Shown piece after piece: positions 3,473 to 60,753 of a DNA stretch of 64,000 nt. Under the pieces are notes generated by a model. It did no database searches. It saw nothing but the letters and a program-made list of their open reading frames with translations, and had not been told where the DNA came from. Location: contig JABLYA010000006.1 of assembly GCA_013177855.1 (NCBI GenBank), positions 62,001 to 126,000 on the forward strand, given 5' to 3'. This stretch comes from Ignavibacteria bacterium. Lineage in GTDB: Bacteria; Bacteroidota; Ignavibacteria; Ch128b. The position numbers were made by a program, and so were the translations under genes. Position 1 is the first letter of the stretch. Every line of letters starts with the position of its first letter.

Positions 3473-3970
3473 TTAAATATAATTTACAGCATCAGAAAAT
3501 GCTTTAACTAATTTTTTATCATCCAAACTTTTAAGTTTGTTATAAGACACATCAGATAATTCTTTTTTTATCTTTGTCAATAATTGTCTATATTCTTTTG
3601 CGTTTTTAAATTTTCCAATTTCACTTATATAAGGTTCAATAGCTGTAGATAATTCATCCTCAATTATATACTTTAAATTTTCATTAACAAATTCAGAATA
3701 TTTCATAATTTTTCTTTCCATTTTGTTTAATGCTCTATCACCATTTATTTGATTTGGTTCTTGTGAATTATCACTACCTTTAATATTGGACGATTTTAAT
3801 ATCATTTCACCACATTCTTCAATAGATAATCCGTTATTAAAATTTTTATTTACAACAGCTTGTAAATTATCTTTTTGTAATTCTTTTATTAATTCATCAA
3901 TTTCTTCAGGATTTTGTACAGTTTTCTTTATATATTCTTGTACTTCTTCAAAATATTCATTTATATTCAT
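3473..3970 (-). CDS. Hypothetical acidic protein with internal capsid-targeting-like motif, 165 aa
   Basis: Acidic, mostly helical protein. The N-terminus (MNINEYFEEVQEY) and an internal methionine at residue 89 (MKYSEFVNENL) both resemble the short M-K-x-F-x-E tag found on many proteins between 19 and 26 kb. The two halves may have been separate short genes joined in frame, or the internal methionine may be an alternative start. It lies 36 bp upstream of the next leftward gene, so the two probably form one unit. Function unknown. Confidence 0.6.
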   Translation of the reverse strand: MNINEYFEEVQEYIKKTVQNPEEIDELIKELQKDNLQAVVNKNFNNGLSIEECGEMILKSSNIKGSDNSQEPNQINGDRALNKMERKIMKYSEFVNENLKYIIEDELSTAIEPYISEIGKFKNAKEYRQLLTKIKKELSDVSYNKLKSLDDKKLVKAFSDAVNYI

Positions 3971-9489: not shown

Positions 9490-10905
9490 ATGTATATGTC
9501 AGCAGATAATATTGAAAAAATTATAGATGGTAGAAAACAATATGTATCATTCACAAGTGATGGTGCTTATCCTTTCTTTTTTTCAATTCCTAAAAAAATT
9601 GTAATTTTTGGTGATTGTGCAGATACACACGGTAAAATTGGTTTTATCAGATATCCAAAAGAATATAATGAAATACTAAAAATTCGAGAATGTCAACCTT
9701 TTTTAAAGGGTAGAATATGGATAAATGAAAAAATTATATCATTTTGGAATTACGATTTTGCAGACCTTATAGATATTGAAGAAAAGAAATTAAAATTCGA
9801 AAATATAACTGAAAGTAATACTCTAACATTCATGGAAACAATTAAGATTATTGAAGATTCATTCAATGAATTGGTAGATAATAATAGAAAATTGACAGAT
9901 GAAGAAAAAGAAGATAACCCCAATTTAAGAGGTGAATGGTTATATCACAAAGATAATTCTCATAAAGAAAAATTAGATAAGAAAATACATATAGATAATA
10001 GTTGGTTTATTGATGTACCTGTAAAATGGTTCGGTGATGAAGGTGAAAATTATGAAGTATATGATATTAAATATTCACTTTTACCATTAAATAAATTTAT
10101 AAAAGTGGCTTTAAAAAATATTGATACTATTGGTTCAGAAAAATTAAGAACCATACACTTACTAAATTATAAAGAAAAACAAGAATTGAAAAAGAAAGGT
10201 TGGGGTCGTGGTTGGGGTTCTGATTTAACCGCATGGGATGGTAAAAATCCCCTTTGGTGGAGACAAGTTAAGTATCAAGAAAATATAAATAACAATATGA
10301 TAACAAAATTTAAATTATTTGAAAATCCTGATTATGTTAGTGAATTAGATTTAGGAACACATCAAGGCAGACCATTCGCTGTAAAAGATGGTATAGTAGA
10401 AGTTGGTAATCGTGGTGATTTCCATGAATATGCTGGATTAAGTGGTAATTATTCGGATATTAAATATCCTGGTAGAATATGGATAAAAGAGAAATGTATT
10501 GCTTTTTGGGTTTACCCATCACAAGACGAATTCAAAGATATTATAAATCAATTGGAAAATATATTAAAAATTAAAATATTTAATAATAATTGGTTTGTTG
10601 AAATATATGAAATGAATGATGGTATTGCTGGTATTGATATTGAAGCAGATGATAAATATATGTTTGACGATGCTTATAAAGGTGAAGGTGAATATAAACT
10701 TATACCTGTTGAAGAATATGTTGGCTCAAAAGATGTACCAGAAGAAGAAAGAGTAATTCACTTACTTTCTTGGGCAGAAAAACAAGCACTAAAAGCCAAA
10801 GGTTGGGGGCATGGCTGGGGATCTGATTTGACATCATGGGATTCAAAGAATCCATTGGCATGGCGACAAGCAAAATACCAAGAAAATGTAAAATATAAAA
10901 AATAA
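9490..10905 (+). CDS. Hypothetical protein with tandemly duplicated domain, 471 aa
   Basis: The protein is built from two related halves. Each ends with the same motif, IHLL....K(Q)EL/AL-KxKGWGxGWGSDLT-WD-KNPL-WRQ-KYQEN (about residues 222-262 and 417-466). The second half begins at residue 270 with MITKFKLFENPDY, which looks like the N-terminal tag of other proteins in this window, as if two genes were fused in frame. No enzyme motif is recognised. The Gly/Trp-rich repeat may be a structural module. Monocistronic, with a terminator after the stop. Confidence 0.7.
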   Translation: MYMSADNIEKIIDGRKQYVSFTSDGAYPFFFSIPKKIVIFGDCADTHGKIGFIRYPKEYNEILKIRECQPFLKGRIWINEKIISFWNYDFADLIDIEEKKLKFENITESNTLTFMETIKIIEDSFNELVDNNRKLTDEEKEDNPNLRGEWLYHKDNSHKEKLDKKIHIDNSWFIDVPVKWFGDEGENYEVYDIKYSLLPLNKFIKVALKNIDTIGSEKLRTIHLLNYKEKQELKKKGWGRGWGSDLTAWDGKNPLWWRQVKYQENINNNMITKFKLFENPDYVSELDLGTHQGRPFAVKDGIVEVGNRGDFHEYAGLSGNYSDIKYPGRIWIKEKCIAFWVYPSQDEFKDIINQLENILKIKIFNNNWFVEIYEMNDGIAGIDIEADDKYMFDDAYKGEGEYKLIPVEEYVGSKDVPEEERVIHLLSWAEKQALKAKGWGHGWGSDLTSWDSKNPLAWRQAKYQENVKYKK

Positions 10906-18735: not shown

Positions 18736-19047
18736 TTACATAAATTCTAATGGAAAATTGGTTACACAAGCTTTAATATAATCAATAAATTCTTCATCAA
18801 GTTCACCGTCAGCGATTAATTCATCAATATTGTTTTCATCTATGTAACCTTCATATGTCCATAATACATCATTATCTATATCTATTAATTTCCACTCAGT
18901 TGTTTGAGATGATTCTGGTTGATTATAACATTCTATACGATCAATACCATCTGGGTTTTGATCAAAATAGTATGTGTACAAAATAGATACACTTGATATT
19001 CTTGGTTCATCACCATATCCTTCATTAAATTTTTTCATGTGTTTCAT
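18736..19047 (-). CDS. Hypothetical acidic protein with capsid-targeting-like N-terminus, 103 aa
   Basis: Start taken at ATG 19047 (MKHMKKFNEGYGDEP); a TTG three codons upstream is less likely. The N-terminal K-K-F-N-E pattern resembles the tag shared by neighbouring genes. The rest is acidic (IDENNIDELIADGELDEEF) with no known motif. It lies between the repeat protein and the peptidase in one leftward unit. Function unknown. Confidence 0.6.
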   Translation of the reverse strand: MKHMKKFNEGYGDEPRISSVSILYTYYFDQNPDGIDRIECYNQPESSQTTEWKLIDIDNDVLWTYEGYIDENNIDELIADGELDEEFIDYIKACVTNFPLEFM

Positions 19048-19065
19048 TTTTATCAAATTTATTTT

Positions 19066-20679
19066 TTAATAAAGAGAACCTAAATCGGTTCCTATATTTT
19101 TACGTTTTTTCATTTTTGTAGTAATATCTATTGATTCAACTTTTCTTTCTTTACTTTTGTTTTCAAATAATTGTTCTAATGTCGGAACTTTTTCAATCTT
19201 TTCTGGATTTTCAGAAACATTTTCTAATTTTTCACCAATGTTTTTGTTCTTTGGTTCATTATTATATAATGTTTCTTTTAATGATTTATTTTTAATATTA
19301 CCTGTTAAATTCCCTATTGGTAATTGGTCTTGAATCATTCCTAAATCTACTTTACGAACTGTGTTTGGATTTATATAAATTGGTTCTAATTTATTACCAA
19401 TGTTTGTGTTATTAATTTCATTATTAAATAAAGTTTCTAAAGGAGTATTAATATTATCTGTAAGTTGACCAGGATTTAATTGAGTAAATGTTGGATCATT
19501 CAAATCATTATTACCTACATTGTTAGTTAAATCACCAGCATTTAATTGTGAAAATACAGTGTTTAAATTATTATTTATATTTGGTGTTAATGTACCAGCA
19601 TCATCTTGTACAAATAAAGGATTTTGTATGTTATTGTTAGATATATTACTTGTTAATGAACCTGGCATTGTTTGTGTAAACAAAGGATCATCTAAATCAT
19701 TATTACCAACGTTATTTGTTATTATACCAACATTATCTTGAGAAAATATAGTATTATTCAAATTTGTATTTCCAACATTTCCTGTTGTTATACCAGCATT
19801 ATCTTGAGAAAACATAGGATTATTCAAATTTATATTTCCAACATTTCCTGTTGTTATACCAGCGCTATCTTGTGTAAATACTGGATTTACTAAATTTGTA
19901 TTACCTATATTACCTGTTGTCATACCAGCATTATCTTGTGAAAATACAGGTGAGTTTAATGTTATATTACTTATATTATTTGTTATTGTGCCTGGATTGT
20001 TTTGTATAAATGTTGGATCGTCCAAATCATTATTACCTATATTATTTGTTAATGAACCTGGTGTTGTTTGAGAAAATACGGGTGTATTTAATATGGTATT
20101 ATTGATATTATTGGATATAATACCTGGTACATCTTGTGTAAAAACAGATGTTAATGCAACATTAGAAATATTATCTGTTGTTATACCTGGAACATCTTGT
20201 GTAAATGTTGGTATTGTTAAAATAGGGTTATTTATATTTGGTGTTGTAGTGCCTGGATTGTCTTGTAAAAAAATTGGTGCATCCAAATCGTTGTTTCCTA
20301 CATTATTAGTTAAAATACCTACAGCATCTTGTATTATTACATTACCTAAATTCGTTCCAATGTTTGGTGTAATAACACCAGCATTATCTTGAGGAATATT
20401 ATAATCATTTATTATAGAATTACCAACATTACTTGATAAAATACCTGGTGATGTTTGTGTTACAATTGTTCCTAAATTTGTACCAATATTATTTGTTAAT
20501 ACACCAGCATTAGTTTGATTAATATTTCTTTCAGCGAGAGATGGGTTAGCAATATTATTAGTTAATAAACCTGGTGGTAATTGACCTGTTGTTCCGTCTG
20601 GATGTTTTGGTGGTCTTGAAACAATTTCTTGTACAAGTTCCGATGCCATTTCGAAAGGTTTTTCTAAAGGATTTTCCAT
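19066..20679 (-). CDS. Asn-rich tandem-repeat protein, probable structural or fibre protein, 537 aa
   Basis: About residues 45-400 consist of some sixteen repeats of 22-25 residues with the core F-[ST]-Q-D-x-[AP]-G-x-[LIT]-T-x-N-[IV]-[GS]-N. Each repeat carries conserved Gly and Asn at turn positions, typical of beta-solenoids. The C-terminal about 120 residues are Lys/Glu-rich and non-repetitive. No signal peptide. It overlaps the upstream gene by one base (TAATG arrangement), so the cluster is translationally coupled. Its position among virion-type genes suggests a fibre, whisker or decoration protein; the family is not recognised. Confidence 0.75.
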   Translation of the reverse strand: MENPLEKPFEMASELVQEIVSRPPKHPDGTTGQLPPGLLTNNIANPSLAERNINQTNAGVLTNNIGTNLGTIVTQTSPGILSSNVGNSIINDYNIPQDNAGVITPNIGTNLGNVIIQDAVGILTNNVGNNDLDAPIFLQDNPGTTTPNINNPILTIPTFTQDVPGITTDNISNVALTSVFTQDVPGIISNNINNTILNTPVFSQTTPGSLTNNIGNNDLDDPTFIQNNPGTITNNISNITLNSPVFSQDNAGMTTGNIGNTNLVNPVFTQDSAGITTGNVGNINLNNPMFSQDNAGITTGNVGNTNLNNTIFSQDNVGIITNNVGNNDLDDPLFTQTMPGSLTSNISNNNIQNPLFVQDDAGTLTPNINNNLNTVFSQLNAGDLTNNVGNNDLNDPTFTQLNPGQLTDNINTPLETLFNNEINNTNIGNKLEPIYINPNTVRKVDLGMIQDQLPIGNLTGNIKNKSLKETLYNNEPKNKNIGEKLENVSENPEKIEKVPTLEQLFENKSKERKVESIDITTKMKKRKNIGTDLGSLY

Positions 20680-21194
20680 TATAATCTATTCATTAATTTT
20701 CTTCTTGTGACCAATGCTTCAATATATTGGTCTCTTGGCAAACTCATATCTGGTCTTGCTATTTCTTCTGGCATATTAGTATAAGTTATATTTTTAACCA
20801 TTTTATACTCTTTTATTTCTTCTACTTTTTCTTTCTCTTTTTCACCACTTTCAATCATCTGTAAAACTTCAGTTAAATATGTAATTGCTTCTTTATCTAA
20901 ATCATCTTTTTTTGCAACTATTTCATATATTTTTTCGTTATCGTAAATATGAAATTCATTTGCTGGTATTGAATTATCTTCATAAAATTTTAAAGTACCT
21001 ATATCTCCATATTTAAAGATAATATGATTTGTTAAAGATTGATATTTTTTAATAAATTCATCTCTGATTTTAATTGTAAAATCAGGATCTTTCTTTTTTT
21101 GAACTGGACCTTTTATATTTGTACCTAAATCAACTTTAAAATATTTAATTGTTTTAAAGTATCTTAACATTGTATTGTTTGTTACTATTTCCAT
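20679..21194 (-). CDS. Hypothetical protein, 171 aa
   Basis: Start taken at ATG 21194 (MEIVTNNTMLRYFKT), which abuts the upstream gene's stop; a TTG at 21206 would overlap it. Mixed alpha/beta composition with a Lys/Glu-rich segment (SGEKEKEKVEEIKEYK) near residue 120. It is the middle gene of a tightly packed leftward cluster (one-base and two-base junctions), most likely virion assembly genes. No family recognised. Confidence 0.6.
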   Translation of the reverse strand: MEIVTNNTMLRYFKTIKYFKVDLGTNIKGPVQKKKDPDFTIKIRDEFIKKYQSLTNHIIFKYGDIGTLKFYEDNSIPANEFHIYDNEKIYEIVAKKDDLDKEAITYLTEVLQMIESGEKEKEKVEEIKEYKMVKNITYTNMPEEIARPDMSLPRDQYIEALVTRRKLMNRL

Positions 21195-21195
21195 A

Positions 21196-21864
21196 TTATT
21201 TTTCAAATTGTGTTTTTAATTCACCTATTTTAGAAATAATGAATATTTCAATAAAATCAAAACCTGCATCATTTTGTCCTTGATTTTGTGATGGTATACC
21301 TTCAAATAGTTTCTCACCTTTTTTAAAATTAGCACTTTCCATTGGTTTTTGACCACCTTGTCCTTGTGCTTGTTTTTGAGCTGGTGATGTGGCTTGTGAT
21401 TGTATTTCTTGACCTTGACTAAGTGTTTCATTTTCAGATGATAATTTAACTTTTACAAAAAATCTTCCTTCTTCGTTTATTTCATCTTCTGTTGATTGTT
21501 TAATATCTAAGTTACCTTGCCATTCTCTTAACATTTCTGATGTTTCATTATCATATAATTTTATTTTCATATAAGCTTTAGTTATTGGATCATTATTTTT
21601 AACATCATCCAATTTGACAATGAAAATAACTTGATAATAAAATTCATTATCAGTAAAGTTTAAAATTATATTTTTTTCAAATTCATCATATGATGTGGAT
21701 CTTTCAACATCTACAAGTGTTACAACTTCTAATTCTTTTTCACCAAGAACATCATTTTTTCCTTCAAATGTTTCTTTAAACATCTTGACCATATTATTCA
21801 AAAGAGTAGAAATTCTATTAGATGCAGAATTTACATATTCTTCATAAAGTTTTAATATTTTCAT
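21196..21864 (-). CDS. Hypothetical protein with capsid-targeting-like N-terminus, 222 aa
   Basis: Begins MKILKLYEEYVNSASN, a member of the shared N-terminal tag family. Residues 30-150 form an acidic beta-rich domain (FTDNEFYYQVIFIVKLDD). Residues 150-195 are a low-complexity Gln/Gly/Ala linker (SQGQEIQSQ, QAQGQGGQ), followed by a short hydrophobic C-terminal segment (FIEIFIISKIGEL). The linker and tag suggest a virion internal or head-associated protein; this is inferred, not shown. Confidence 0.6.
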   Translation of the reverse strand: MKILKLYEEYVNSASNRISTLLNNMVKMFKETFEGKNDVLGEKELEVVTLVDVERSTSYDEFEKNIILNFTDNEFYYQVIFIVKLDDVKNNDPITKAYMKIKLYDNETSEMLREWQGNLDIKQSTEDEINEEGRFFVKVKLSSENETLSQGQEIQSQATSPAQKQAQGQGGQKPMESANFKKGEKLFEGIPSQNQGQNDAGFDFIEIFIISKIGELKTQFEK

Positions 21865-21892
21865 TGTTTCTTTATTATGTTTTTATTATATA

Positions 21893-22177
21893 TTAAAAAA
21901 GTTTGTTTAATACCTCATTTATTTTTCTTTTATGTATAAATACACAAGGTGATTCTGTCCATATTTCTTGTTCTTTAAAATCACTTATTTCGGTTTTAAA
22001 TTGTATAATATTTTCTTTTTTATATATTAAATTTGTTGTTTCTCGTAATTCGTTGTATGAATTTATTGAAAAATTTCTGTTTGTAAAATATTTTTTTACT
22101 ATTGATTTCATATCACCACACCAACCTTCTTTCTTTACACTAGGTATCATATAAAATTCATAAAAATTATCTTTCAA
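21893..22177 (-). CDS. Hypothetical protein, 94 aa
   Basis: Start MKDNFYEFYMIPSVKK again has K, F and E in the first eight residues. Contains SVKKEGWCGDMKSIVKKYF and a C-terminal CVFIHKRKINEVLNKLF. Its start overlaps the stop of the upstream gene by 4 bp, indicating coupling. Unknown family; possibly a small partner of the gene just upstream. Confidence 0.55.
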   Translation of the reverse strand: MKDNFYEFYMIPSVKKEGWCGDMKSIVKKYFTNRNFSINSYNELRETTNLIYKKENIIQFKTEISDFKEQEIWTESPCVFIHKRKINEVLNKLF

Positions 22178-22818
22178 TATTTTAATAAATTGTCGTGATA
22201 AATATTGTTTTTTTTTATTAATTCCTTAACTTTTTCCCATTTCATTTTCTTTAACTTAGTGTTGAGGTTATTTAATTTTGTCATAAATTCATTATAATCA
22301 TCATCGTTTAGTACATCATTTTTATTTCCCATTATTACATAATAAAAATTATATAAATCTCTAGTAAATTGACCAGCATCATATTTCAAATCATCAAAGG
22401 AAACAAAAATATCATGTTTTTTACAAACACCCCATTTAGAATCATCTTTTGGAATAACATAATATCTATTACCTTCAATATGACTTGTTCCTAATGTACA
22501 TATAAAAGATTTGCTTCTTTTAGGATAATCTTTCCATTCTGGTGCATTATCTATAATTAAAGTATAATAATTATAACAATCGGATGATTTTCTATTTAAT
22601 GTTTTTGGATCTGAATAGAAATAGTCAAAATCTATCCAATCTTTACCCAAATTATCTGGTCTTATACTTCTTGTTATAACTTTAGGTTTTTTAAGAAACT
22701 CCTTACAATTTTCTTTTATATAATTAATCAATTGTTCTTCAGACAATTCTTCTGATATAGATTGAAATTTTTTAGTCACATATATATTCCAGTCCTCAAT
22801 ATATTTTAAATATTTCAT
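22174..22818 (-). CDS. Tagged protein with possible ADP-ribosyltransferase-like fold, 214 aa
   Basis: N-terminal tag MKYLKYIEDWNIYVTKKF, then a domain with CKEFLKKPKVITRSIRPDN, NRKSSDCYNYYTLIID, WKDYPKRSKSFICTLG and YYVIPKDDSKWGVCKKHDIF. This order (arginine strand, S/T-rich strand, Y-x-V-I-P strand) resembles hypothetical virion proteins of T4-like phages that I suspect adopt an ADP-ribosyltransferase-like fold, by analogy with T4 Alt, which is packaged in the head. A catalytic R-S-E triad cannot be confirmed by eye. It opens the leftward cluster that ends at 18.2 kb. Confidence 0.55.
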   Translation of the reverse strand: MKYLKYIEDWNIYVTKKFQSISEELSEEQLINYIKENCKEFLKKPKVITRSIRPDNLGKDWIDFDYFYSDPKTLNRKSSDCYNYYTLIIDNAPEWKDYPKRSKSFICTLGTSHIEGNRYYVIPKDDSKWGVCKKHDIFVSFDDLKYDAGQFTRDLYNFYYVIMGNKNDVLNDDDYNEFMTKLNNLNTKLKKMKWEKVKELIKKNNIYHDNLLKY

Positions 22819-22905
22819 AATCTATATATTTAATTTTTAGTTTTAATTATTAATATATAATAAAAATATAAAATTAATATATAATAAAAATATAAATCTA
22901 CAATT

Positions 22906-23631
22906 ATGAAAATTAAAAGTTTCACATTGTTTGAAAATGCTAATCAAACGAATGGTAATACATATGGGATGGGTAATATTGGTGCACCACAACCAAAAAA
23001 ACCTAATGAGGAAGAATCAAAAAGAATTCCTCATCCTGAACCCGAAAAACCAAAAGAAGAAGAACAACCAAAAAATGAATGTATTAAATCTTTTTCAAAT
23101 TTTCAATTAAATGAAGATGGCGGTGTTGCATTTGCGTCTGATGGTAATACTTCTGGTATGGGAAATGTTTCAACCCCACCTGTATCTACAGATGGTTCTA
23201 TAAATACTTATAGTGGAACAGGATATCCAACCGAAACCGTTGGTAGAGGTTCTGGTGATATTGCTGCAAAGGCTAGTACTTTTGTAAAAGGACAATATAA
23301 AAAAAGAAAGAAAAGAAATATAAAAAAAGAACATTTTGGAACAGAACAACCAAAAGAGAAAATGTATGTAACTTCATATACGGATTGGTTAACTTCTGAT
23401 GGTGTTGATAAAAATTTCATAAACGAAATAAAAAATATGAGCGAAGATGAAATAGATTCTATAATTAATGAAAATAAATTAACTATTGAAAAAATGGCAA
23501 ATGAATTAATTATGCAAAGATCATCAATAGATAATATAAAAGAAAATATTAAAACATTAAATAAAAACATATCTTTTGTAAATGATAAATTAGATAATAT
23601 TATCAAATTAAATAATTTAAAAACTAAATAA
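22906..23631 (+). CDS. Tagged low-complexity protein, probable virion internal protein, 241 aa
   Basis: Starts MKIKSFTLFENANQTNG; a second similar motif, IKSFSNFQLNED, follows at about residue 61, after a Pro/Glu/Lys linker. Residues 70-130 are Gly/Ser/Thr-rich (NTSGMGNVSTPP, GRGSGDIAAK), then a basic patch (KKRKKRNIKKE) and a coiled-coil-like C-terminus. The pattern of tag, flexible linker and basic DNA-binding-like patch suits a protein packaged with DNA. It is divergent from the leftward cluster and leads a rightward run of tagged genes. Confidence 0.6.
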   Translation: MKIKSFTLFENANQTNGNTYGMGNIGAPQPKKPNEEESKRIPHPEPEKPKEEEQPKNECIKSFSNFQLNEDGGVAFASDGNTSGMGNVSTPPVSTDGSINTYSGTGYPTETVGRGSGDIAAKASTFVKGQYKKRKKRNIKKEHFGTEQPKEKMYVTSYTDWLTSDGVDKNFINEIKNMSEDEIDSIINENKLTIEKMANELIMQRSSIDNIKENIKTLNKNISFVNDKLDNIIKLNNLKTK

Positions 23632-23632
23632 A

Positions 23633-24439
23633 ATGAATATGAATATTGAAATTAATTGGGATATATTCCCACAAGACAGAGATACTTTTAAAATAACATT
23701 TGTCACAAGAGCTTGGGTTCCATTCATAATAGATAATGAAGAATATAGTGTTCAAATAGGTGTAGAAGCAGTAAAATATATTGGAACTGGTGATTATATT
23801 GTTAAAGATGTATGGATTGAGAAATTAGAAGGTGCACCAGATTTTAAATTAACAGAAGAAATGAAAAAAGAATTGGCTGATGCTATAATAGAATTACCTG
23901 ATAGTAGTGGAATTGAAATAAACGAGAGTGTATTGAATGAAAAAAAATTTTCATCAAAGGAAAGAGCAGAAATGGCAGAAAAAGGTGAAGCATTATCTGA
24001 TGGCTCATTTCCAATTAAATCAAAACAAGATTTAATTAATGCTATCAAATCGCAAGGTAGAGGTTTAAGAAATGCTGATGATAAAAGAAAGAAAGAAGTT
24101 TTGGCACATATTTATAAAAGAGCTAAATCATTAGGTATAAAATTATCAAAAACTGAAAAAGGTTATTGGTCAATTGTTAAAGAATCTAATGATATGAAAA
24201 CAATTATGAATTTTAATTCATTTGTGAATGAAAAATGGGCTGTTGATGTTAAAGTAAAACAAACTGGTGAACATGCAGGAAAAACTATTACTGAAATAAA
24301 TAAAGAGATAACTGCATTGAAAGATAAACATGCTAAGGCAAGAGAAAAAGATAAAAACTATAAAGTATCTGATGCTGATAAAAGCAAAATGTCACAACTT
24401 TTATTTGCAAAAAGAGCCAAAAAACATTGGAATAAATAA
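23633..24439 (+). CDS. Protein with DUF6582-like domain and internal capsid-targeting-like motif, 268 aa
   Basis: Residues 1-100 form a beta-rich domain. Residues about 103-170 match a domain common in phage head proteins, ERAEMAEKGEALSDGSFPI followed by K-Q-D-L-I-N-A-I and GRG, which I recall as DUF6582. At residue 188 comes MKTIMNFNSFVNEKW, like the start tag of neighbours, then a Lys-rich helical tail. It may be two fused ORFs, with the second made separately from the internal methionine. It follows the previous stop by one base, so it is co-transcribed. Confidence 0.6.
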   Translation: MNMNIEINWDIFPQDRDTFKITFVTRAWVPFIIDNEEYSVQIGVEAVKYIGTGDYIVKDVWIEKLEGAPDFKLTEEMKKELADAIIELPDSSGIEINESVLNEKKFSSKERAEMAEKGEALSDGSFPIKSKQDLINAIKSQGRGLRNADDKRKKEVLAHIYKRAKSLGIKLSKTEKGYWSIVKESNDMKTIMNFNSFVNEKWAVDVKVKQTGEHAGKTITEINKEITALKDKHAKAREKDKNYKVSDADKSKMSQLLFAKRAKKHWNK

Positions 24440-24443
24440 TTTT

Positions 24444-24968
24444 ATGAAACATTTAAAACACTTTGAATCGTACTTTGAAGATTATTCACAATGGGAATTA
24501 GATGAATTATTGGCTTATAAAAGAAAGTTAGAAAATAAGATCGATGATTACTTTAGTGATGGACATAAATATACTGGAGACCAAGGTTATCAAGATTTAT
24601 TAGAAGATTTGGATGCAGTTGAAGAAGCAATAAAAGAAAAAGAAAAACTTTCAGAAAGCGCTAACATCACAGGTCATTATCCATTTGATGCATATCCTGG
24701 ACCACAGGTTGTTAATACAGCATCTAATTTTTTAACTGCTGGTGCTTCTGATGGTAGTATTGGAGGTAGTGGTAATCTATATGGTCAAACAGGTGTGTTA
24801 GGTGGTGAATTTCCTAAAAAATATCAACCTTCAACACCTTATCCAGATAAATTTAAACAAACAATTATAAATATACAAACAAAAGAAAGTAGAAAGCGCA
24901 AAAACGCTTTGAAAAAATTACAAAGATTGGATAAATTAGTTTATTTTGACAATTTTGAAAACAAATAA
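24444..24968 (+). CDS. Tagged Gly-rich protein, probable virion internal protein, 174 aa
   Basis: Start ATG 24444, chosen because the product begins MKHLKHFESYFEDYSQWEL like its neighbours; a longer upstream frame overlaps the previous gene. Residues 15-70 form an acidic coiled coil (LAYKRKLENKIDDYF...LEDLDAVEEAIKEKEKL). A Gly/Ser/Pro linker follows (GASDGSIGGSGNLYGQTG), then a basic C-terminus (SRKRKNALKKLQRLDK). This layout matches the 22906 gene: tag, linker, basic patch. Confidence 0.6.
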   Translation: MKHLKHFESYFEDYSQWELDELLAYKRKLENKIDDYFSDGHKYTGDQGYQDLLEDLDAVEEAIKEKEKLSESANITGHYPFDAYPGPQVVNTASNFLTAGASDGSIGGSGNLYGQTGVLGGEFPKKYQPSTPYPDKFKQTIINIQTKESRKRKNALKKLQRLDKLVYFDNFENK

Positions 24969-24970
24969 TT

Positions 24971-25117
24971 ATGAAATATTTAAGAACATATGAAGATTGG
25001 AATTCTATTATGGAACCTTCACATCACACAGAAGATTGGTTTAAAGATTATTTTGTTGAAAGTGATTTTTTGGAGATTTTATTAATAGATTTTGGGAATA
25101 TTCAAAAAATAAATTAA
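24971..25117 (+). CDS. Short tagged protein, 48 aa
   Basis: Starts two bases after the previous stop; product MKYLRTYEDWNSIMEPSHH..., ending FGNIQKIN. The first ten residues match the tag of the 22818 gene (MKYLKYIEDWN). Too short for a domain; it could be a remnant or a mini-peptide of the tagged family. Confidence 0.5.
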   Translation: MKYLRTYEDWNSIMEPSHHTEDWFKDYFVESDFLEILLIDFGNIQKIN

Positions 25118-25123
25118 AATAAA

Positions 25124-25783
25124 ATGAAAATAAGAAAAGGTTTTGTAAGTAATAGTTCAAGTAGTAGTTTTATAGTGTTTTTCCCACATGAAATTAAAAG
25201 TAAAGAAGAACTTGATAAATTAATTCTAACCGATGAAGATCGTAAAAGAATTATTTTAGATTATAGTTATGCTTTTACTGATACTAAGATAGAAGAAAGA
25301 ATTAAAAAAACATATCAAAGTTTCTTAAACGAATCAAAAGATATTGGTATGACATATGAACAATTTAGAGAAAAGGTTATTGATTATGTGTTTAAAGATA
25401 TACAAGAACAAGGACCAAATAACTATTTTGAAGCCATAACACTTTGGTTTGGTTGGAATTATCATGTCGATGAGAATGGTGTATTACATACTTATGATGG
25501 TTTAGAATTTCATAATATTGCTGAATTGAGAGAAGCGTTTAAAAAGATAGATGAAGAAGTTGATTGGTCACAACCAGATGCATATGAACAATATGAAGAA
25601 TTGCAAGAATATCAAAATTTAGAAAGATTGAAAGAATTGATAGATGATATAGATGATGCTTTAAATGCACCAGAAGTATTTTATTCATTTTCATTTTCAG
25701 ATGAAGATGGAACATTTTTTTCAATAATGGAACATGGTGGTATATTTGGTGATTTAAAAGAATTCAGAAAATCACATCATTAA
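25124..25783 (+). CDS. Protein with conserved SNSSSSSF N-terminus, 219 aa
   Basis: Begins MKIRKGFVSNSSSSSFIV, a motif found at the start of many uncharacterised phage and bacterial proteins. The rest is acidic with a Trp/Tyr-rich segment (WFGWNYHVDENGVLHTYDG) and a C-terminal SFSDEDGTFFSIMEHGG. The serine run is always at the extreme N-terminus in such proteins, but its purpose is unknown. It lies six bases after the 48-aa ORF in the rightward tagged-gene run. Confidence 0.65.
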   Translation: MKIRKGFVSNSSSSSFIVFFPHEIKSKEELDKLILTDEDRKRIILDYSYAFTDTKIEERIKKTYQSFLNESKDIGMTYEQFREKVIDYVFKDIQEQGPNNYFEAITLWFGWNYHVDENGVLHTYDGLEFHNIAELREAFKKIDEEVDWSQPDAYEQYEELQEYQNLERLKELIDDIDDALNAPEVFYSFSFSDEDGTFFSIMEHGGIFGDLKEFRKSHH

Positions 25784-25802
25784 AAAAAAATAATAAATAA
25801 AT

Positions 25803-26137
25803 ATGAAAACAAAATTTAATGAATTTATAAATGAAAATGCTCAAGAAGTAGGTGATTGGGTTATATTTGCTGGTCTTGGTGGTAGTTTCGGTGGTGCAAA
25901 TTTTCAAGAAGTTGTAAAAATTGTACCAGAGAAGAAGCAGAACAACTAGCATATCAATTAGCTATACAAGAATATGAATCTTATGAAGGTATGCACGGAC
26001 TTAGAACCATTGATGAAATTATGGAAGAAGACAATCTTGATTATGAAGATGCTGAAATAATTTATAACGATGAAAGAGAAAGTTGGTTAGATTATTGGGT
26101 AGAACCTTATGATCCAAAAAATTGGGTAGAATTATGA
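25803..26137 (+). pseudogene. Tagged small protein split by one frameshift (about 111 aa)
   Basis: ATG at 25803: MKTKFNEFINENAQEVGDW, then VIFAGLGGSFGGANFQEVV; the frame stops near 25950. One extra base in the A-run before 25920 lets it continue as REEAEQLAYQLAIQEYESY... to TGA at 26135-26137, ending DPKNWVEL. The N-terminus is one of the best tag copies. The shift is probably a sequencing error. Function unknown. Confidence 0.55.
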
Positions 26138-27159: not shown

Positions 27160-28206
27160 ATGGATTTGAATAAAGATTATTATAAAATACTAGGTGTTAC
27201 CAAAACTTCTTCATCTAATGACATAAAAAATGCTTATAAAAAATTAGTAAAAATGTATCACCCAGATTTGAATAAAAATAATTCTGATGATAAAATAAAA
27301 GAAATAAATATCGCATATTCTGTTCTTAGTGATGAAACAACAAAAAAACAATATGATACACAAAGTCCTTACGGAAAATCATACAATCCAAATCCATTTG
27401 AACATGTTGGTGGTATTTATGAGATTTTTAATGTTTTCTTTGGTAATGATCTATTTTCACAAAGTAGAAATCCATTTGGTTCTTTTTTTCACGGTGGAAA
27501 AAATGAATATAAAGAATTCCATGAAAATCTTGATATTACAATAAATTTAATTGTTACATTGAATGATGTTTATAAAGGTAAACCAATCAAAGTATCATAC
27601 AAGAGATTTGTTCATTGTGAAACTTGTAAAGGAACTGGTTTTGACCCAAAAAGCGAATCTTATGAATGTGAAATATGTGGTGGTATAGGGAAAGATAATT
27701 TAGGTAGAAAATGTGAATATTGCCAAGGAGTTGGAAAAATTTATTCTATGCCTTGTGGTTTTTGTAATGGTGAAAAAATTGTATTGAGAGATGCAGAATT
27801 TAATATAACTAATGTAGAAAATATAAGGGCGTCAGAAGATAAATATTTAAGAAGTTTTGGACATCAATCCAAATATTTTAGAGAAAAGAAAGGTGATTTA
27901 AAATTAAAAATTATATACCAAGAAGTTAATAAATATAAAATTATTGATAATAAACTATATTATAATTTAGACCTTCATTACGAAGATGCTATCAAAGGAT
28001 TTAAATATGAATATAAATTATTAGATGATAGCAAAATCAAAGTTTCTATACCAGAAAAAACAAAAGATGGTGATATTATAAGATTGAAAGGAAAAGGTCT
28101 TATTTTAGACATAAAAGGCAATAGAGACGACCTATATATTAAGATAAATATTATAATAGATTACAAAAGACTTCAAAAAAATCTTGAAGTAAAATTTAAT
28201 ATATAA
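27160..28206 (+). CDS. Phage DnaJ-like co-chaperone, 348 aa
   Basis: J domain at residues 1-68 with the HPD motif (MYHPDLNK) and YYKILGV start. No long Gly/Phe region, then a zinc-binding domain with four CxxC repeats (CETCKGTG, CEICGGIG, CEYCQGVG, CGFCNGEK; about residues 150-205) and a C-terminal substrate-binding domain. It is more diverged and AT-rich than the second DnaJ at 41.5 kb and uses the same codons as neighbouring phage genes, so it is a resident phage gene. It probably recruits host DnaK for virion or replication-complex assembly. Confidence 0.9.
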   Translation: MDLNKDYYKILGVTKTSSSNDIKNAYKKLVKMYHPDLNKNNSDDKIKEINIAYSVLSDETTKKQYDTQSPYGKSYNPNPFEHVGGIYEIFNVFFGNDLFSQSRNPFGSFFHGGKNEYKEFHENLDITINLIVTLNDVYKGKPIKVSYKRFVHCETCKGTGFDPKSESYECEICGGIGKDNLGRKCEYCQGVGKIYSMPCGFCNGEKIVLRDAEFNITNVENIRASEDKYLRSFGHQSKYFREKKGDLKLKIIYQEVNKYKIIDNKLYYNLDLHYEDAIKGFKYEYKLLDDSKIKVSIPEKTKDGDIIRLKGKGLILDIKGNRDDLYIKINIIIDYKRLQKNLEVKFNI

Positions 28207-28211
28207 TTAAT

Positions 28212-29646
28212 ATGAAAAATTATAACAATTTCATTTAGAAAAAATCATTCGAAAAGAAAACATAGATGTAATTTATAATAAATATTATAAAAACATTGAT
28301 TATGATATATTTAAAGAAATTATTTCATCAGATCCAACATCTTGGATAGATGGAAATCTTTATTTTGGTAAATATTGTAAGTGGCTTTTAAACCTTTATA
28401 AATCAAATAAATTAAAATTGGAAGACCTTTATAAAGTAAAAGATTACATAGAACTATTTAATAAACAATCTGTTAGAAATAAATTGCCAGTTAATAAAAG
28501 AGATATAAATTTATATGATTCACTAGGTGAATTAGCAAAAACCATAGAACCTTTTAAAGAAAGTGAAGAAATTTTAAGCAGAAGTGAGATAAAAGATAAA
28601 AATTTTGTAAAGGAGTTTAAAAATTTTAATTTATATATTCCTAGAACATATGAAGATTCATGCATTCTTGGTAAAGGAACTGAATGGTGTACAGCCACAG
28701 AAAAACCTCTAAATGGTATAAAAAATATCATAAACCTGGAAGAGAATTACTTATATTCATTTCTAAAACAGATTCAAAAGAAAAATACCAACTTCATTTA
28801 AGATCAAAACAATTCATGGATAAATTTGACAATGAAGTAAATTTAAAAACATTTTTAAATAAAAATGAAGATATAAAAGATTGGTTGTTAAATAATTATA
28901 ATAAAGAATATGGAAAATATTTTAATGAAAATTCTATCACATGGGGAAAAAACACACTAATAGACTCACCAAAAATAGTTGAAGGCGATTTTGATTGTTC
29001 TTATAATCAATTAACTTCATTGGAAGGTGCTCCAGAAAAAGTTGAAGGTGATTTTAATTGTTCTAATAATCAATTAACTTCATTGGAAGGTGCTCCAGAA
29101 AAGGTTGAAGGTGATTTTTATTGTAATAATAATCAATTAATTTCATTGGAAGGTGCTCCAGAAATAGTTGAAGGTGGTTTTTATTGTTATAATAATAAAT
29201 TAATTTCATTGGAAGGTACACCAAAAATAGTTGAAGGTAATTTTGATTGTTCTTTTAATCAATTAACTTCATTAGAAGGTGCTCCAGAAAAGGTTGAAGG
29301 TTATTTTGATTGTTCTGATAATCAATTAACTTCATTGGAAGGTGCTCCAAAAATAGTTGAAGGTGATTTTATTTGTTCTTATAATCAATTAATTTTATTA
29401 GAAAGTGCTCCAAAAATAGTTGAAGGTGATTTTATTTGTTCTTATAATCAATTAATTTTATTAGAAGGTGCACCAGAAAAGGTTGAAGGCAATTTTGATT
29501 GTTCTTATAATAAATTAACTTCATTAGAAGGTGCACCAGAAATGGTTGAAGGTGATTTTTATTGTAATAATAATAATTTAACCGAAAAAGATATAGAATG
29601 GTTAAAACAAAATTGTAAAATAAAAGGAAGAATTATATGGAAATAA
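28212..29646 (+). pseudogene. Tagged leucine-rich-repeat protein split by two frameshifts (about 478 aa)
   Basis: ATG at 28212 gives MKNYNNFI then a stop; one added T restores LEKIIRKENID and the frame runs on to about 28720. A second added A lets TEKPLK read into WYKKYHKPGRELLIF and on to 29646. The N-terminal part contains LGKGTEWCTAT, a motif of phage proteins with such repeats. The C-terminal half is about ten repeats of 20-21 residues (core VEGDFDCSYNQLTSLEGAP), a leucine-rich-repeat solenoid. The first eight residues are identical to those of the gene at 36305. Probably a binding protein; target unknown. Confidence 0.75.
28975..29580 (+). repeat. About ten tandem 60-63 bp coding repeats (LRR units)
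   Basis: In-frame DNA repeats encoding VEG-[DN]-F-x-C-[SN]-x-N-[QK]-L-x-[SL]-LEGAP. The copies stay close at DNA level, so the array probably expands or contracts by recombination. Confidence 0.85.
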
Positions 29647-36304: not shown

Positions 36305-37001
36305 ATGAAGAATTATAACAATTTTATATTTGAATATTTTGGTAATATAGAAGAACAAAAAGAAATGATCTCATTTCTCATTAAAAGAGATTGTGAAAAA
36401 TTTTTAAAAGAAGGTTATCCTATGTTTCGTGGTATGAATTTAAGAGAACCAATTGAAATAATAAAAAAATTTGATGGTAATATAAATGTTACCAGACCAC
36501 CAAAAGATACACCACAACATATACACAAAATGATTGGTGATCTATTTGTTGAAAAATTTGGTTGGAATCCAAGAAATAAAGGTGTTTTTGCCACTTCATG
36601 TTATGAAGATGCCACATTATATAATGAATATGGTGATGTTTATGTATTCATGCCAATTGGTGATTATAAATATTTATATAATCCTAGTGTTTATGATTTA
36701 TATAGAAAATTAACAGATGATGGTTTTGATACTTTTTATAATTGGTTTGAAAAACAAAAAAAGTGATTTACATGGTGGTTTTGCAAAAACTTATTTAAAC
36801 AATTTGAATCCTGTTGAAAAATCACTTTATGAACAAGAATATATGATAAAATTAAGTGAATATTTGCGTTATATTGTCGAACAATATAAAGACACTAATT
36901 TAAAAAATTCAAAAGATGTTGAAGTATCTTTTTATTGTGATAATTATTATCTAATAAATGAAATGTATTTTGATACAGTAAATGATCTGTTTTACAAATA
37001 A
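36305..37001 (+). pseudogene. Tagged protein with possible ADP-ribosyltransferase-like fold, one frameshift (about 231 aa)
   Basis: Starts MKNYNNFIFEYFGN. The core has KRDCEKFLKEGYPMFRGMNL, then TRPPKDTPQHIHKMIGD, FGWNPRNKGVFATSCYEDA and VYVFMPIGDYKYLYNP. I recognise this order from hypothetical proteins of T4-like phages. The F-R-G strand and F-A-T-S strand could be the arginine and S-T-S elements of an ADP-ribosyltransferase, but this is uncertain. After EKQKK a stop appears; dropping one A from the 7-A run restores SDLHGGFAKTYLNNLNP... to 37001. Tag plus ART-like fold would parallel T4 Alt. Confidence 0.55.
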
Positions 37002-40739: not shown

Positions 40740-40885
40740 ACTGACAAACTGTCTTTTTTTAATAATGGCAAAATATTTGTAAAAAAAAGAAATCATTTAA
40801 AGAAAAACTTAATATGGAACAGATTTAACGATAACTGACAAACTGTCTTATTTTAACAATGGTAAAATGTTTGTTAATAAACATG
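40740..40885 (+). promoter_or_regulatory. Two direct repeats with TGACA-AAC-TGTC palindromes upstream of grpE
   Basis: Copies begin near 40740 and 40832. Each has CTGACAAACTGTCTT, a T/A spacer, then ATGG[CT]AAAAT[AG]TTTGT. The latter part loosely resembles a -24/-12 (TGGCA...TTGC) promoter. A transcription-factor site plus promoter, present twice, is the likeliest reading. Confidence 0.5.
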
Positions 40886-40906
40886 CAAAAAAAAAAAATA
40901 ATAAAT

Positions 40907-41542
40907 ATGGAAGTAAACGAAATAAAAGAGAATAAAGAAGAAAATGTTGATTTGTCGAAAGAAAATGTAAAAGAGGATAAAGAAGAAAATGTTGATTTGT
41001 CGAAAGAAAATAAAAAAAAGGAAGCAAGTACTTTGTTATCTAAGAAAAAGAAAAAATACGAAAAATTAAATAATGAAATATTAAAGCTACAGCAAGAAAT
41101 TGAAAATTTGATAGAAAAGTATAAAGAATCTAATGATAAATATTTACGTTTATCTGCTGATTTCGATAATTATAAAAAACGTATATTAAAAGAAAAATCA
41201 GATCTGCTAAAATATGGAGGTGAAATGGTTTTAACAAACTTGATTTCTATTCTTGACGATTTTGAAAGAGCTCAAAATTTTATAAAAAATAGCAATGATA
41301 TAGAAGGAATTAAACAAGGTATTGATTTAATAAACACCAAATTTCATGAATTTATGAAACAACAAGGAATTAAAGAAATTGAATCAAAAAATATCGAATT
41401 TAATACTGATTTTCATGAAGCAATAACTCGTTTGCCAGCTCCAAGCGAAGAAATGAAAGGTAAAGTTATTGATGTGATTCAAAAAGGTTATATGCTTCAT
41501 GATAAAGTTATTCGATTTGCTAAAGTAATAATAGGAGAATAA
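40907..41542 (+). CDS. grpE: GrpE nucleotide exchange factor (host-type)
   Basis: Start set at ATG 40907 ([15 protein letters not shown]); an in-frame ATG 48 bp upstream would add an odd N-terminus overlapping the repeat. Contains a long N-terminal helix ([20 protein letters not shown]), [19 protein letters not shown] and the C-terminal beta-domain [20 protein letters not shown]...[18 protein letters not shown], all diagnostic for GrpE. The acidic N-terminus has a duplicated [11 protein letters not shown] unit. It releases ADP from DnaK. It is followed after 5 bp by dnaJ, the usual Bacteroidetes operon, and is probably captured from the host. Confidence 0.95.
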
Positions 41543-41547
41543 ACAAT

Positions 41548-42708
41548 ATGACAAAACGAGATTATTATGATGTATTAGATATATCTAAAAATGCTACTAA
41601 AGAAGAAATAAAAAAAGCATATCGTAAAAAAGCACTGCAATACCATCCAGATAGAAATCCGGGAGATAAAGATGCTGAAGAGAAATTTAAAGAGGCAGCA
41701 GAAGCTTACGATGTGTTGAGTGATGACGAAAAACGCCGTCGTTACGATCAATTTGGCCATGCTGGAGTAGGAAGCAGTGCAGCAAGCAGTGGATTTGGTG
41801 GTTTTGACATAGAAGATATTTTTAGCAGATTTGGCGATATTTTTGGTGATTTTGGTTTTGGTGGATTTGGCGGATTTAGCGGTTTTGGACATAGAACTTC
41901 ACGTCAAAAGGTTAATAAGGGTACCAATCTGCGAATTAAGGTTAAACTTACCTTACAAGAGATTGCTACTGGAGTAGAGAAAAAAATAAAGGTCAAAAAA
42001 CTTGTTCAATGTACAACCTGTAATGGTACAGGAGCTAAAGATAATCATTCATATAGAGAATGTTCAACATGCAATGGTCAAGGTTATATAACAAGGATTA
42101 CTCGAACCATATTGGGACAAATGCAATCTACTTCTCCTTGTCCTACATGTAATGGAGAAGGCAGAATTATAACTTCCAAATGTAATAAATGTGCGGGTGA
42201 AGGTGTAGTTCACGATGAAGAAATAATAAATATCAACATACCAGCAGGTGTATCAAAAGGGATGCAGCTTTCGTTATCAGGAAAAGGAAATGCTGCACAT
42301 CATGGTGGAATACCAGGTGATTTAATAATTTTAATAGAAGAAGAAAAACACCCCGATTATATAAGAGAAAATAATAATTTAATTTATAATTTAATCATTT
42401 CAATTCCTCAGGCAATTTTTGGAAATACGATAGAAATTCCATTGATTGAAGGAGGAAAGGTAAAAGTAAAAATTGACCCTGGAACTAATTCAGGCAAGTT
42501 ATTGCGAATTAAAGGTAAAGGATTACCAGAATTTCAAGGTTATGGATACGGCGATTTGATTGTTCGTGTTATAGTTTATATACCAACCAATATTTCAAAA
42601 GATGAATGTAGAATATTAGAAAAACTTGAAAATTCGGAAAGATTTAAACCCGAAAATGCTAAAAAAGATAAAAACTTTTTAGAACATTTTAAGAAGTATT
42701 TTTCATAA
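41548..42708 (+). CDS. dnaJ: DnaJ co-chaperone (host-type), 386 aa
   Basis: Complete type I DnaJ: J domain with YHPDRNPG (HPD at about residues 33-35), Gly/Phe-rich region ([19 protein letters not shown]), four zinc repeats ([32 protein letters not shown]; about 150-225) and a C-terminal domain. It delivers substrates to DnaK. It lies 5 bp after grpE and ends at a strong terminator. It looks like an ordinary Bacteroidetes gene and differs from the shorter phage DnaJ at 27.2 kb. Confidence 0.95.
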
Positions 42709-53709: not shown

Positions 53710-53904
53710 ATGAAGTTTCTTAAAACCTTTTCAGGAAATTTTTCAGAACAGGATACCTTTTCAGGAAATTGTTCAGAAGAGGATAGATGTAATAGTTGTG
53801 GCGCACCATTAAATCCTAAAAAGGATAGATGTGAATATTGCGGTTCTTATTATAAAATGAAACCAAGGATTAACACCGTGAAAAAAGATCAAAAAAAATA
53901 TTAA
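53710..53904 (+). CDS. Small tagged zinc-ribbon protein, 64 aa
   Basis: Starts MKFLKTFSGNFSEQD, like the tagged proteins of the 19-26 kb region. The FSGNFSE/FSGNCSEED unit is duplicated. Then a zinc ribbon, CNSCGAPLNPKKDRCEYCG, with two CxxC pairs, and a basic tail. It lies only 7 bp after the transposon's target duplication, so its natural promoter may have been displaced. Confidence 0.6.
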   Translation: MKFLKTFSGNFSEQDTFSGNCSEEDRCNSCGAPLNPKKDRCEYCGSYYKMKPRINTVKKDQKKY

Positions 53905-58098: not shown

Positions 58099-58566
58099 TT
58101 ATCCTTCTGTATTTTCATCAGGTATTTGTTTAAAAGCATTCTTTACCGCTACAATTGGATCAAATTCTTTCTTTTCTGGTGGAACAACAACAACACCACC
58201 AAAAGTATGTGAACCAGAACTTTTAGCCATCGCTGATTTAGATGCTCTAAAAATAATATAATTATTTATTTTATTCAATTTTTCATCATTTTTAACAGCA
58301 TTGGCAACCTTTTTATAATCTTGGTTATTTTGTTTGCAAATTTCTGCCCATCTTTGCCAATCTTCTTTTGTAATGTCAGCTAAATTAACTTTAATTTTCT
58401 TAAAGTTTGTTTCATGTGTGTAAGATTTTTTCCATGATTGAACAATAAAATGTGTCAAAGAGTTGGTGTCAAGTCTTTCCCAACCTTTTTGTTCTGTTGA
58501 TGAAAATAAACCTTCATCTATCTGTTCTATTTGTGAGAATTGACTATAATTTTTTAAATATTCCAT
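58099..58566 (-). CDS. Tagged hypothetical protein, 155 aa
   Basis: Starts MEYLKNYSQFSQIEQIDEGL, a variant of the tag with a possible cleavage site near I-D-E. Then WERLDTNSLTHFIVQSWKKS, DITKEDWQRWAEICKQNNQD and a Ser/Gly/Val-rich end (SSGSHTFGGVVVVPPEKKEF). Probably a small virion-associated protein like the others; no family recognised. Confidence 0.6.
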   Translation of the reverse strand: MEYLKNYSQFSQIEQIDEGLFSSTEQKGWERLDTNSLTHFIVQSWKKSYTHETNFKKIKVNLADITKEDWQRWAEICKQNNQDYKKVANAVKNDEKLNKINNYIIFRASKSAMAKSSGSHTFGGVVVVPPEKKEFDPIVAVKNAFKQIPDENTEG

Positions 58567-59085
58567 ATTAATTTAATTGTTTTTTCTAATGTTATATATT
58601 AATTAAAAAAACTCATTTTTTTTTATTTTTATGTTTTACAAACCAATTTTTTGCTATAAAATACAAAATTCAATAAACTAAATAATTAATCATAAAAAAC
58701 ATAATTTAAAACTAAACTTTTATGACTTGAATTTTGCTTAAAAACATTAAATTTATATAAACATTCATTTAATGAAACTCGATATTTCGTAATTTAATTA
58801 TCTTCACTTTTTTAAAGTGTTTAATTCTTTTCTTCAGTTTGAATACATTTTCATAAAAAAATGGATAATTGAAATTAAGTCTTGAGTTAATTCTGTTTGA
58901 AAGTTTTTCCCTTCTTTAGATTTTAACCACATAAAATATATTTCCTTATATATTAAAGAAAATTATTTTTTTATGATTTTTATGTTAAATTATTGTTAAT
59001 TTTTAATAGTTGGGATGTAAGTTTGCAAAATATAAACCGATACCAATGATACATCTGCTATGGTTTATTTTAATAATATGAAAAT
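58567..59085. other. Non-coding AT-rich region with dispersed repeat
   Basis: About 520 bp. Contains the inverted 44-bp repeat (58655-58698) and a CACTTT/AAAGTG hairpin at about 58805-58820. A weak 32-codon leftward frame (58834-58932, MWLKSKEGKNFQTELTQDL) may be a real mini-gene. Nothing else seen. Confidence 0.45.
58655..58698 (-). repeat. 44-bp dispersed repeat, copy B (inverted)
   Basis: Reverse complement of 43698-43741, identical over 44 bp. The pair flanks a 14.9-kb segment that includes the transposon. Confidence 0.85.
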
Positions 59086-59115
59086 AAAAACCAGAATTTC
59101 TTCTGGCTTTTATTT
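59086..59115 (-). terminator. Terminator after the YkuK-like gene
   Basis: Stem AATAAAAACCAGAA/TTCTGGCTTTTATT around a TTTC loop, overlapping the stop at 59115. Confidence 0.85.
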
Positions 59116-59746
59116 TACTTACAAAGTGAATCTGCAGCACTTGAACTTGCGTAAGCTTTAGGTTTACCAACAACTTTAAATCCCATACTACAAAACATAC
59201 CCATAGCAGCATTATAAAGTTTGTTAGACTTGTTTTTTTGCTTATCACCTTCATTTGAATTGAAATCCAAATGGATTATAGGCAATCTATAAGGAACCGA
59301 ACCATCATATTCATTCTTTTCATGCTTAACGAAATATTTACCTTTTAATTTTTCATCTAACCAAATACCTAATTCCATTAAGTATTCTACTTCATTCCAT
59401 AATTTAACTGTAATGTAATCATTTAAAGGCATTAAGTTATTGTCTTTATAATTTTCAATAACATCATAATGCCATTGTGATACTCTCTTTCTTTTTTTCA
59501 AATAAGATTTTGGCATTTTTAATCTTTTAAAAATACAGTGAGCACCATTATGTTTAAAATTATCATACATAACAATAGTTAAGGCATATGTAAGATTCTT
59601 ACGGTGTGGCTGAGAGTCACAACCTAACATATTTGAATATTTGAATGCAAAGTTCCATGACCATTTCTTTTGGTGTAATCAACAATGTAATCAACAATGT
59701 TTTCAATTTTTTCACCACTAACTTTCTTAAATAAATTTTCTTTCAT
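59115..59746 (-). pseudogene. YkuK/DUF458 RNase H-like protein split by one frameshift (about 210 aa)
   Basis: ATG 59746 gives MKENLFKKVSGEKIENIVDY..., ending HSNIQIC with a stop; adding one A before TGTTAG links to MLGCDSQPHRKNLTYALTIV and on to 59115. The G-C-D-S-Q core (first catalytic acid), LPIIHLDFNSNEGDKQKNKS (second) and FKVVGKPKAYASSSAADSL (third acid region) match the YkuK-type RNase H fold. It may act on RNA-DNA hybrids or structured RNA. Start and end are well defined by hairpins. Confidence 0.7.
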
Positions 59747-59768
59747 TTTCCGTTCTTTTCTAAAATAA

Positions 59769-59793
59769 AAAACCTCTCATTTGAAGAGGTTTT
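59769..59793 (-). terminator. Terminator before the YkuK-like gene
   Basis: Stem AAAACCTCT/AGAGGTTTT with a 7-nt loop, overlapping the stop of the 154-aa gene. Confidence 0.85.
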
Positions 59794-60256: not shown

Positions 60257-60261
60257 ATATA

Positions 60262-60732: not shown

Positions 60733-60753
60733 AATTTGATGATTTTATTTTAG

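Follow-up and report, generated by a model that had tools for sequence, protein, structure and literature searches.

Genome setting and tagged genes of the window

The window, that is, the whole 64,000-nucleotide stretch analysed here (positions 62,001–126,000 of contig C6, JABLYA010000006.1, assembly GCA_013177855.1), encodes a series of proteins that begin with variants of one short peptide ending in glutamate, hereafter called the tag. C6 lies within a set of phage contigs, C5–C9 (98, 213, 147, 47, and 16 kb; 521 kb in total), whose GC content of 25–28% differs from that of the bacterial host chromosome binned with them (approximately 33%). The portal and capsid proteins of the set were 67% and 63% identical, respectively, to those of LR756501, a 735,411-bp phage, and 52–53% identical to those of LR745206 and LR756502. 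By identity, both proteins group with the 634–735 kb genomes of the Mahaphage clade of huge Bacteroidota phages (name from PMC7162821); a search of known phages for DNA similarity to this DNA gave none. Between LR756501 and C5–C9, 148 reciprocal best matches were found, spread across all five contigs. Because of these matches, the shared GC content, and the shared tag, the five contigs were treated as a single genome, and the spread of the matches supports such an origin without proving it. C5–C9 thus appear to be parts of one huge phage, a relative of Mahaphages, binned with a bacterial host chromosome.

The tags are approximately 9–14 residues long and end in [LIVMF]xE, behind which cleavage is predicted (marked ↓). 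To avoid circularity, they were scored with a motif trained on LR756501 and LR745206 only (the independent motif, which reads roughly M..K[YF]..F[IL][NK]E↓), the 1% decoy level of which corresponded to a score of 10.6. Six sites in the window passed this level. On the minus strand, these were a small protein at 18736–19047 (MKHMKKFNE↓GYGDEP..., score 12.6), the proteins at 21196–21864 (MKILKLYEEYVNS..., score 11.0) and 22174–22818 (MKYLKYIEDWNIYVTKKFQSISE↓EL), and an internal copy, MKYSEFVNE↓N, at 3680–3706 within the open reading frame (ORF) 3473–3970 (score 22.3). On the plus strand, they were a 48-residue protein at 25803–25949 (MKTKFNEFINE↓NAQEVG), which gave the highest score in the genome (23.3), and the protein at 36305–36766 (MKNYNNFIFE↓YFGN), which carries the exact pattern of the T4 capsid targeting sequence. 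The 36305 body corresponds to phrog_11975 and, like that of 22174, belongs to a family common with tagged proteins of the Agrobacterium phage Atu_ph07; an IMG/VR search found one relative of 22174 and none of 36305 or 22906. The protein at 21196–21864 is homologous to that at 729801–730406 of LR756501, and both genes adjoin a gene for a capsid-arm mimic, located in the window at 22906–23631 and described below.

Two plus-strand sites were borderline, namely the internal tag MKTIMNFNSFVNE↓K at 24194–24232 in the ORF 23633–24439 (10.3 against 10.6) and the protein MKHLKHFESYFE↓D at 24444–24968 (8.6), the ORF of which is readable from 24330 and the tag from 24444. Five fell below the threshold: the mimic at 22906, for which strong separate evidence was obtained, and the weak tag-like segments at 24971–25117 (plus; MKYLRTYEDWN, without a clear cut site), 53710–53904 (plus; MKFLKTFSGNFSE↓Q), 58099–58566 (minus; MEYLKNYSQFSQIEQIDE↓G), and 10297–10323 (plus; MITKFKLFE↓NPD, internal to the ORF 9490–10905). 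This last ORF consists of two similar halves joined with the tag-like segment at the junction; it resembles two fused tagged genes and could possibly be cut in the head. At 28212–28238 (plus), MKNYNNFI is followed directly by TAG, with the body in another frame. All N-termini and the three internal copies listed in the first-pass annotation were thus present, the one at 28212 as a broken gene; as tag variants, six hold at the decoy level, whereas those at 24971, 53710, 58099, and 10297 do not.

Specificity of the tag motif

The anchored pattern ^MK.Y..[FY][IVL].E opened 6 of the 596 genes in C5–C9 against approximately 0.03 expected at starts, and its core occurred seven times in the 145,797 other residues. 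Six genes carry the exact T4 pattern MKxYxxFIxE, with exact-type tags including MKNYLEFIKE, MKKYLQFIIE, MKRYTNFILE, and MKNYNNFIFE. Mutagenesis of the T4 internal protein (IP) IPIII mapped targeting mainly to residues 4 and 7 and processing to residues 8 and 10 (PMC9026906), and the six exact tags have Y4, F/Y7, I8, and E10 at these very positions; approximately 40–50 further tags are variants of comparable length.

With the independent motif, 40 of the 596 genes matched, where internal-Met decoys predict 6.0 (p=1.4e-20); at an equal threshold, the host gave 1 match in 356 genes. The matches were spread over all five contigs, which answers the call of the first-pass annotation to look for more tagged genes elsewhere in the genome. 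Applied to T4, the same motif ranked gp61.1 (MKTFKEFIKE↓D), IPIII, and IPII (MKTYQEFIAE↓A) at the top. Conversely, a motif trained on C5–C9 matched 88 of 979 genes in LR756501 (10 expected) and, over 400 kb of LR745206, 66 of 548 (5.5 expected), while one trained on LR745206 gave 102 matches in LR756501. These cross-genome counts replaced those from self-trained motifs (53 here, 116 in LR756501), which were judged to be overfitted because self-training yielded approximately 20 matches in PTm1 and T4 as well. We estimate that at least some 35–50 proteins are tagged in this phage, and about 90–110, roughly one gene in ten, in LR756501. Codons at the conserved tag positions vary synonymously, and therefore selection acts on the peptide.

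The start of the tag was not informative by itself. The loose pattern MKxLxxFxxF, close to the signature first put forward, was found in 30 of 596 phage genes and 20 of 356 host genes, where the matches are probably signal peptides, and it was rejected as a marker for being non-specific. By comparison, [LIVMF]NE occurred within the first approximately 20 residues of 48 of 596 phage genes and 5 of 356 host genes. The discriminating portion of the tag is its E-terminated end, not the loose MKxLxxF start.

Head machinery and the shared putative cut site

C5 carries a head cassette in T4 order, consisting of portal, protease, scaffold-like, and capsid protein genes, with profile matches of 2.4e-67 for the portal (gp20, PF07230), 7.7e-8 for the protease (gp21-type, PF03420), and 6.4e-27 for the capsid protein (gp23, PF07068); the gp21-like protease sought elsewhere in the genome was thereby found. 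In LR756501, LR756502, LR745206, and LR756504, the gp20, gp21-type protease, and gp23 genes lie on one single contig. Nearly all of approximately 40 Mahaphage capsid proteins have [LMIV]NE↓N between the propeptide and the mature N-arm, a position matching that of the T4 gp23 maturation cut after FLTE. The last three residues of the tag ([LIMVF]NE) equal this conserved capsid-protein site. In the scaffold ORF, [LIVMF]NE was found 10 times per 1000 residues, compared with 2.4 proteome-wide. The protease itself has a tag-like N-terminus, the end of which reads LNE↓G in this phage and INE↓A in LR756501; a possible N-terminal site has also been described for T4 gp21 (PMC9026906).

In C5, the protease and scaffold genes (58877–61379) form two ORFs overlapping in a repeat of approximately ten YSEYIAENLDKNIA units. 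Since they form one ORF of 700–820 codons in the relatives, the C5 copy is frameshifted, either naturally or by assembly. A 176-residue protein at 48046–48576 of C5 combines the capsid propeptide (KWSVILDKL...WLSEYAEMHQ) with another body, and a similar protein was found at 291407–291880 of LR745206; sharing the propeptide is perhaps an alternative route of entry into the prohead.

Given these features, the shared N-termini are very probably T4-type capsid targeting sequences that mark cargo for head loading, cleavage, and delivery at infection. The capsid-targeting interpretation, already offered at first pass, is supported by the match to the IPIII residues, the match to the capsid site, the protease, and the unrelated bodies behind the tag.

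Capsid-arm mimics and T4 gp61.1

In the product of the plus-strand gene at 22906–23631, a tag-like segment twice precedes a copy of the mature capsid N-arm: MKIKSFTLFE↓N stands before GNTYGMGNIGAP, and KSFSNFQLNE↓D before GNTSGMGNVSTP...INTYSGTG...GRGSGD. A basic stretch comes after both. To evaluate this likeness, the proteins other than the capsid protein were searched in each of seven phages for the best match to the mature arm of that phage, and its score was compared with those of shuffled arms. In six of the seven, a small protein scored well above the shuffled arms (score/best shuffled: this phage 110/59, LR756501 106/63, LR745206 95/56, PTm1 103/61, Lak-B5 75/54, and T4 69/52), the exception being PAU, in which the search with its own arm found no mimic. 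The T4 mimic was gp61.1, a protein without assigned function (NC_000866, 18966–19130) that can be interpreted as a capsid targeting tag, a gp23 N-arm mimic, and a basic tail. On sequence grounds, the 22906–23631 protein can be regarded as a capsid-arm mimic and the counterpart of gp61.1. Relatives of gp61.1 were found in 1,386 phage records, mostly annotated as hypothetical and sometimes as capsid protein.

In this phage, LR756501, LR745206, and T4 gp61.1, a tag or a tag-like segment ending in xxE stands ahead of the mimic. In Ac42, V07, RB43, and Thanatos, it follows an unrelated domain of approximately 70–110 residues that also ends in glutamate (MEE, VEE, MNE, or ITE); in other T4-like phages, gp61.1 has an N-terminal domain that showed no similarity to gp67, gp68, or gp22. 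Because the mimic is preceded by a tag or by a glutamate-ending domain, the cut exposing it would have the same form as the cut exposing the real arm. This suggests that the tag and the capsid protein share one cleavage junction, and the likeness of the two junctions constitutes the strongest sequence evidence that the glutamate of the tag is a protease site. The mimic would probably dock at the inner shell and bind DNA with its tail.

These findings bear on the possibility that the tag sorts proteins to some other site, such as a replication compartment, the tail, or a membrane, the terminal glutamate being incidental. The sequence does not itself display a destination, and many cargo proteins are enzymes that could work in the cytoplasm; yet the tag ends in the capsid cut motif, precedes capsid-arm mimics, and resembles the proven T4 head tag, which makes another destination unlikely and favours the head.

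Cargo bodies and modular attachment

Behind the shared tag, 55 bodies fell into 54 clusters in this phage, in accord with the first-pass claim that the bodies are unrelated, and 114 into 89 clusters in LR756501. Pfam domains of 8 families were identified among 59 cargo proteins here and of 40 families among 99 in LR756501. The cargo includes enzymes, namely DeoC (deoxyribose-phosphate aldolase), HD and DHH proteins, and methyltransferases; DeoC, a DHH protein, and an isochorismatase-like protein, for which no PDB match was obtained, are tagged in both phages. Residue 19 of DeoC aligns with residue 4 of the bacterial enzyme, by which alignment the tag is an extension ahead of the normal start. 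Among 55 genes with T4-core homologues in three Mahaphages, 1 carried a tag. The gene at 43982 of C7 was considered as an untagged orthologue of the tagged LR756501 gene at 476705 and rejected; an in-frame KNYNTFIFE↓NAI lies upstream of the called start, and it is therefore no case of tag loss.

LR756501 contains two families of tagged proteins, one with 12 and the other with 11 members, as would be expected if tagged genes were duplicates of one ancestor that had kept its N-terminus by descent. The near absence of clustering among the bodies here and the presence of the tag on enzymes of different folds speak against such descent, which we consider very unlikely, and for a head-loading tag attached in a modular fashion.

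Other lineages, other tags

In Sphingomonas phage PAU, approximately 18 genes begin with MKT[IL]xxLYE(A/S)KLNE↓, and its proteins annotated as 'internal capsid protein' start with MKSLTNLYENKLNE↓ and MKTISKLYEAKLNE↓. Lak-B5 has the tags MNxxxKKxLYE↓S and MNKxIKxLVE↓SLFDD. In Atu_ph07 (MF403008, approximately 41.8–51 kb), ten neighbouring genes begin with M[KR]WxQL[TN]E↓ or a variant; the bodies behind these tags, which include the form MRWxQLTE, are homologous to the window proteins 36305 and 22174, and the occurrence of one body family behind tags that differ by lineage fits the prediction of a modular loading code. Chance or a general N-terminal bias, such as lysine-rich starts of AT-rich genes or translation effects, might account for the enrichment of K at positions 2–6 and for the host-like frequency of the loose pattern, but was already disfavoured and is the least probable explanation of all, as the full motif is nearly confined to the phage and transfers between genomes, its codons vary synonymously, and the tags differ by lineage.

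Aligning the body family of 22174, 36305, and Atu_ph07 in search of the catalytic R-S-E of ADP-ribosyltransferases revealed a conserved YRG, RSKS, and E. With a model of the Atu_ph07 family (pLDDT 73), Foldseek gave no match, and VIA-align gave weak ones (Z 6.2 to 2aua and 2.2–2.9 to OspC3, CopC, and PARP10); searching PDB sequences with the family of 36305 returned nothing convincing. The family may be ADP-ribosyltransferase-like, as is T4 Alt, with weak structural support from the model.

Comparison with known systems

T4 IPI–III and this phage have in common an N-terminal tag of 10–13 residues (MKxYxxFIxE in exact cases), a gp21-family protease, the gp20/gp23 cassette, and unrelated bodies; thus the features of T4-type systems that can be tested by sequence, including the hydrophobic-x-E end of the tag, were all found. 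The start MKTYQEFI that had been ascribed to T4 cargo in general applies to IPII and IPIII, whereas IPI starts with MKTFKEFTS and Alt with MELITELFDE. Unlike the IAE of T4, the cut in this phage is mostly at [LIVF]NE. Three IPs are present in T4, and a total of at least 10 has been reported among T-even relatives (PMC12373910); unlike T4, this phage has 35–50 tagged genes and LR756501 approximately 90–110, with enzymes among the cargo.

PAU is alike in its repeated LNE-ending N-terminal tag on many small proteins, among them the internal capsid proteins gp142 and gp154, and its T4-type head genes, and differs in the tag sequence, in the number of tagged genes, and in that the capsid role comes from annotation. 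The phiKZ/SPN3US systems likewise belong to giant phages in which ejected head cargo is processed by a protease, but their ejection proteins have propeptides of more than 100 residues with AxE/SxE cuts, mostly without a shared short tag (PMC5694885); assignment to this type was rejected, as the tags here are short and end in [LIVMF]xE. In P1, the anti-restriction protein DarB is loaded into the head by an N-terminal signal (PMC9024508). The loading signals of P1 Dar proteins are alike in position and differ in having no common motif among them.

Proposed loading scheme

In the proposed scheme, the tag would attach an otherwise unrelated protein to the scaffold during assembly of the prohead core. 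The gp21-type protease would then cut behind [LIMVF]-x-E, in most cases [LIVF]NE, a site of the type at which it would also separate the propeptide from the major capsid protein, and the cargo would remain in the head, packed with DNA, and enter the host at infection. More broadly, Mahaphages and other huge T4-type phages seem, on balance, to have extended the internal-protein strategy of T4 to a general loading code. Each lineage would pair a tag with its own protease, and up to about a tenth of the gene products, enzymes included, would be loaded for delivery; the conserved cargo would include the T4 gp61.1 type, an N-arm mimic with a basic tail, perhaps for shell docking and DNA binding. 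New with respect to T4 are the scale, the enzyme cargo, the lineage-specific tags, and the link to gp61.1. In the literature searched, with preprints and subscription journals outside its scope, we found no earlier report of such tags in Mahaphages.

Several points weigh against this interpretation. Capsid entry, tag removal, and injection in this phage are all deduced from its sequence. The protease lies on C5 and the window on C6, contigs of the same bin whose joint membership we infer. Cross-trained motifs, too, exceed expectation in PTm1, so that only many-fold differences are meaningful, and some tag-like N-termini are without a clear xxE site.

Most genes of huge phages are without known function, and a readable tag would assign dozens of them to a head-carried class delivered at entry, to which, in T4, the ADP-ribosyltransferase Alt and the anti-restriction proteins Ip1-3 belong. 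The tag thus provides a simple sequence test across phages as well as candidate cargo-loading tags for large capsids, and it draws attention to the conserved but unstudied T4 gene 61.1. The scheme suggests that these viruses would inject a large ready-made set of proteins together with their DNA.

Neighbouring genes

The broken gene noted above extends over 28212–29646 as a tagged leucine-rich-repeat-like gene disrupted by frame changes. Its repeat family recurs near contig ends, at 21.3 kb of C5, 58.7 and 146.5 kb of C7, and the start of C8. Phage chaperone genes were recognised by eye at 27160–28206 and 40883–42708 and at 130342–132207 of C7, comprising two DnaJ-like ORFs, a likely GrpE, and a DnaK-like protein. 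At least six proteins with otherwise different bodies have in common another N-terminus, MKI[R]xGFVSNSSSSSF; their genes are located at 25124–25783 in the window and at 20395, 25670, 26346, 27738, and 36882 of C7, and a run of genes with xRxxVFETNSSSTHS lies at 228–230 kb of Lak-B5.

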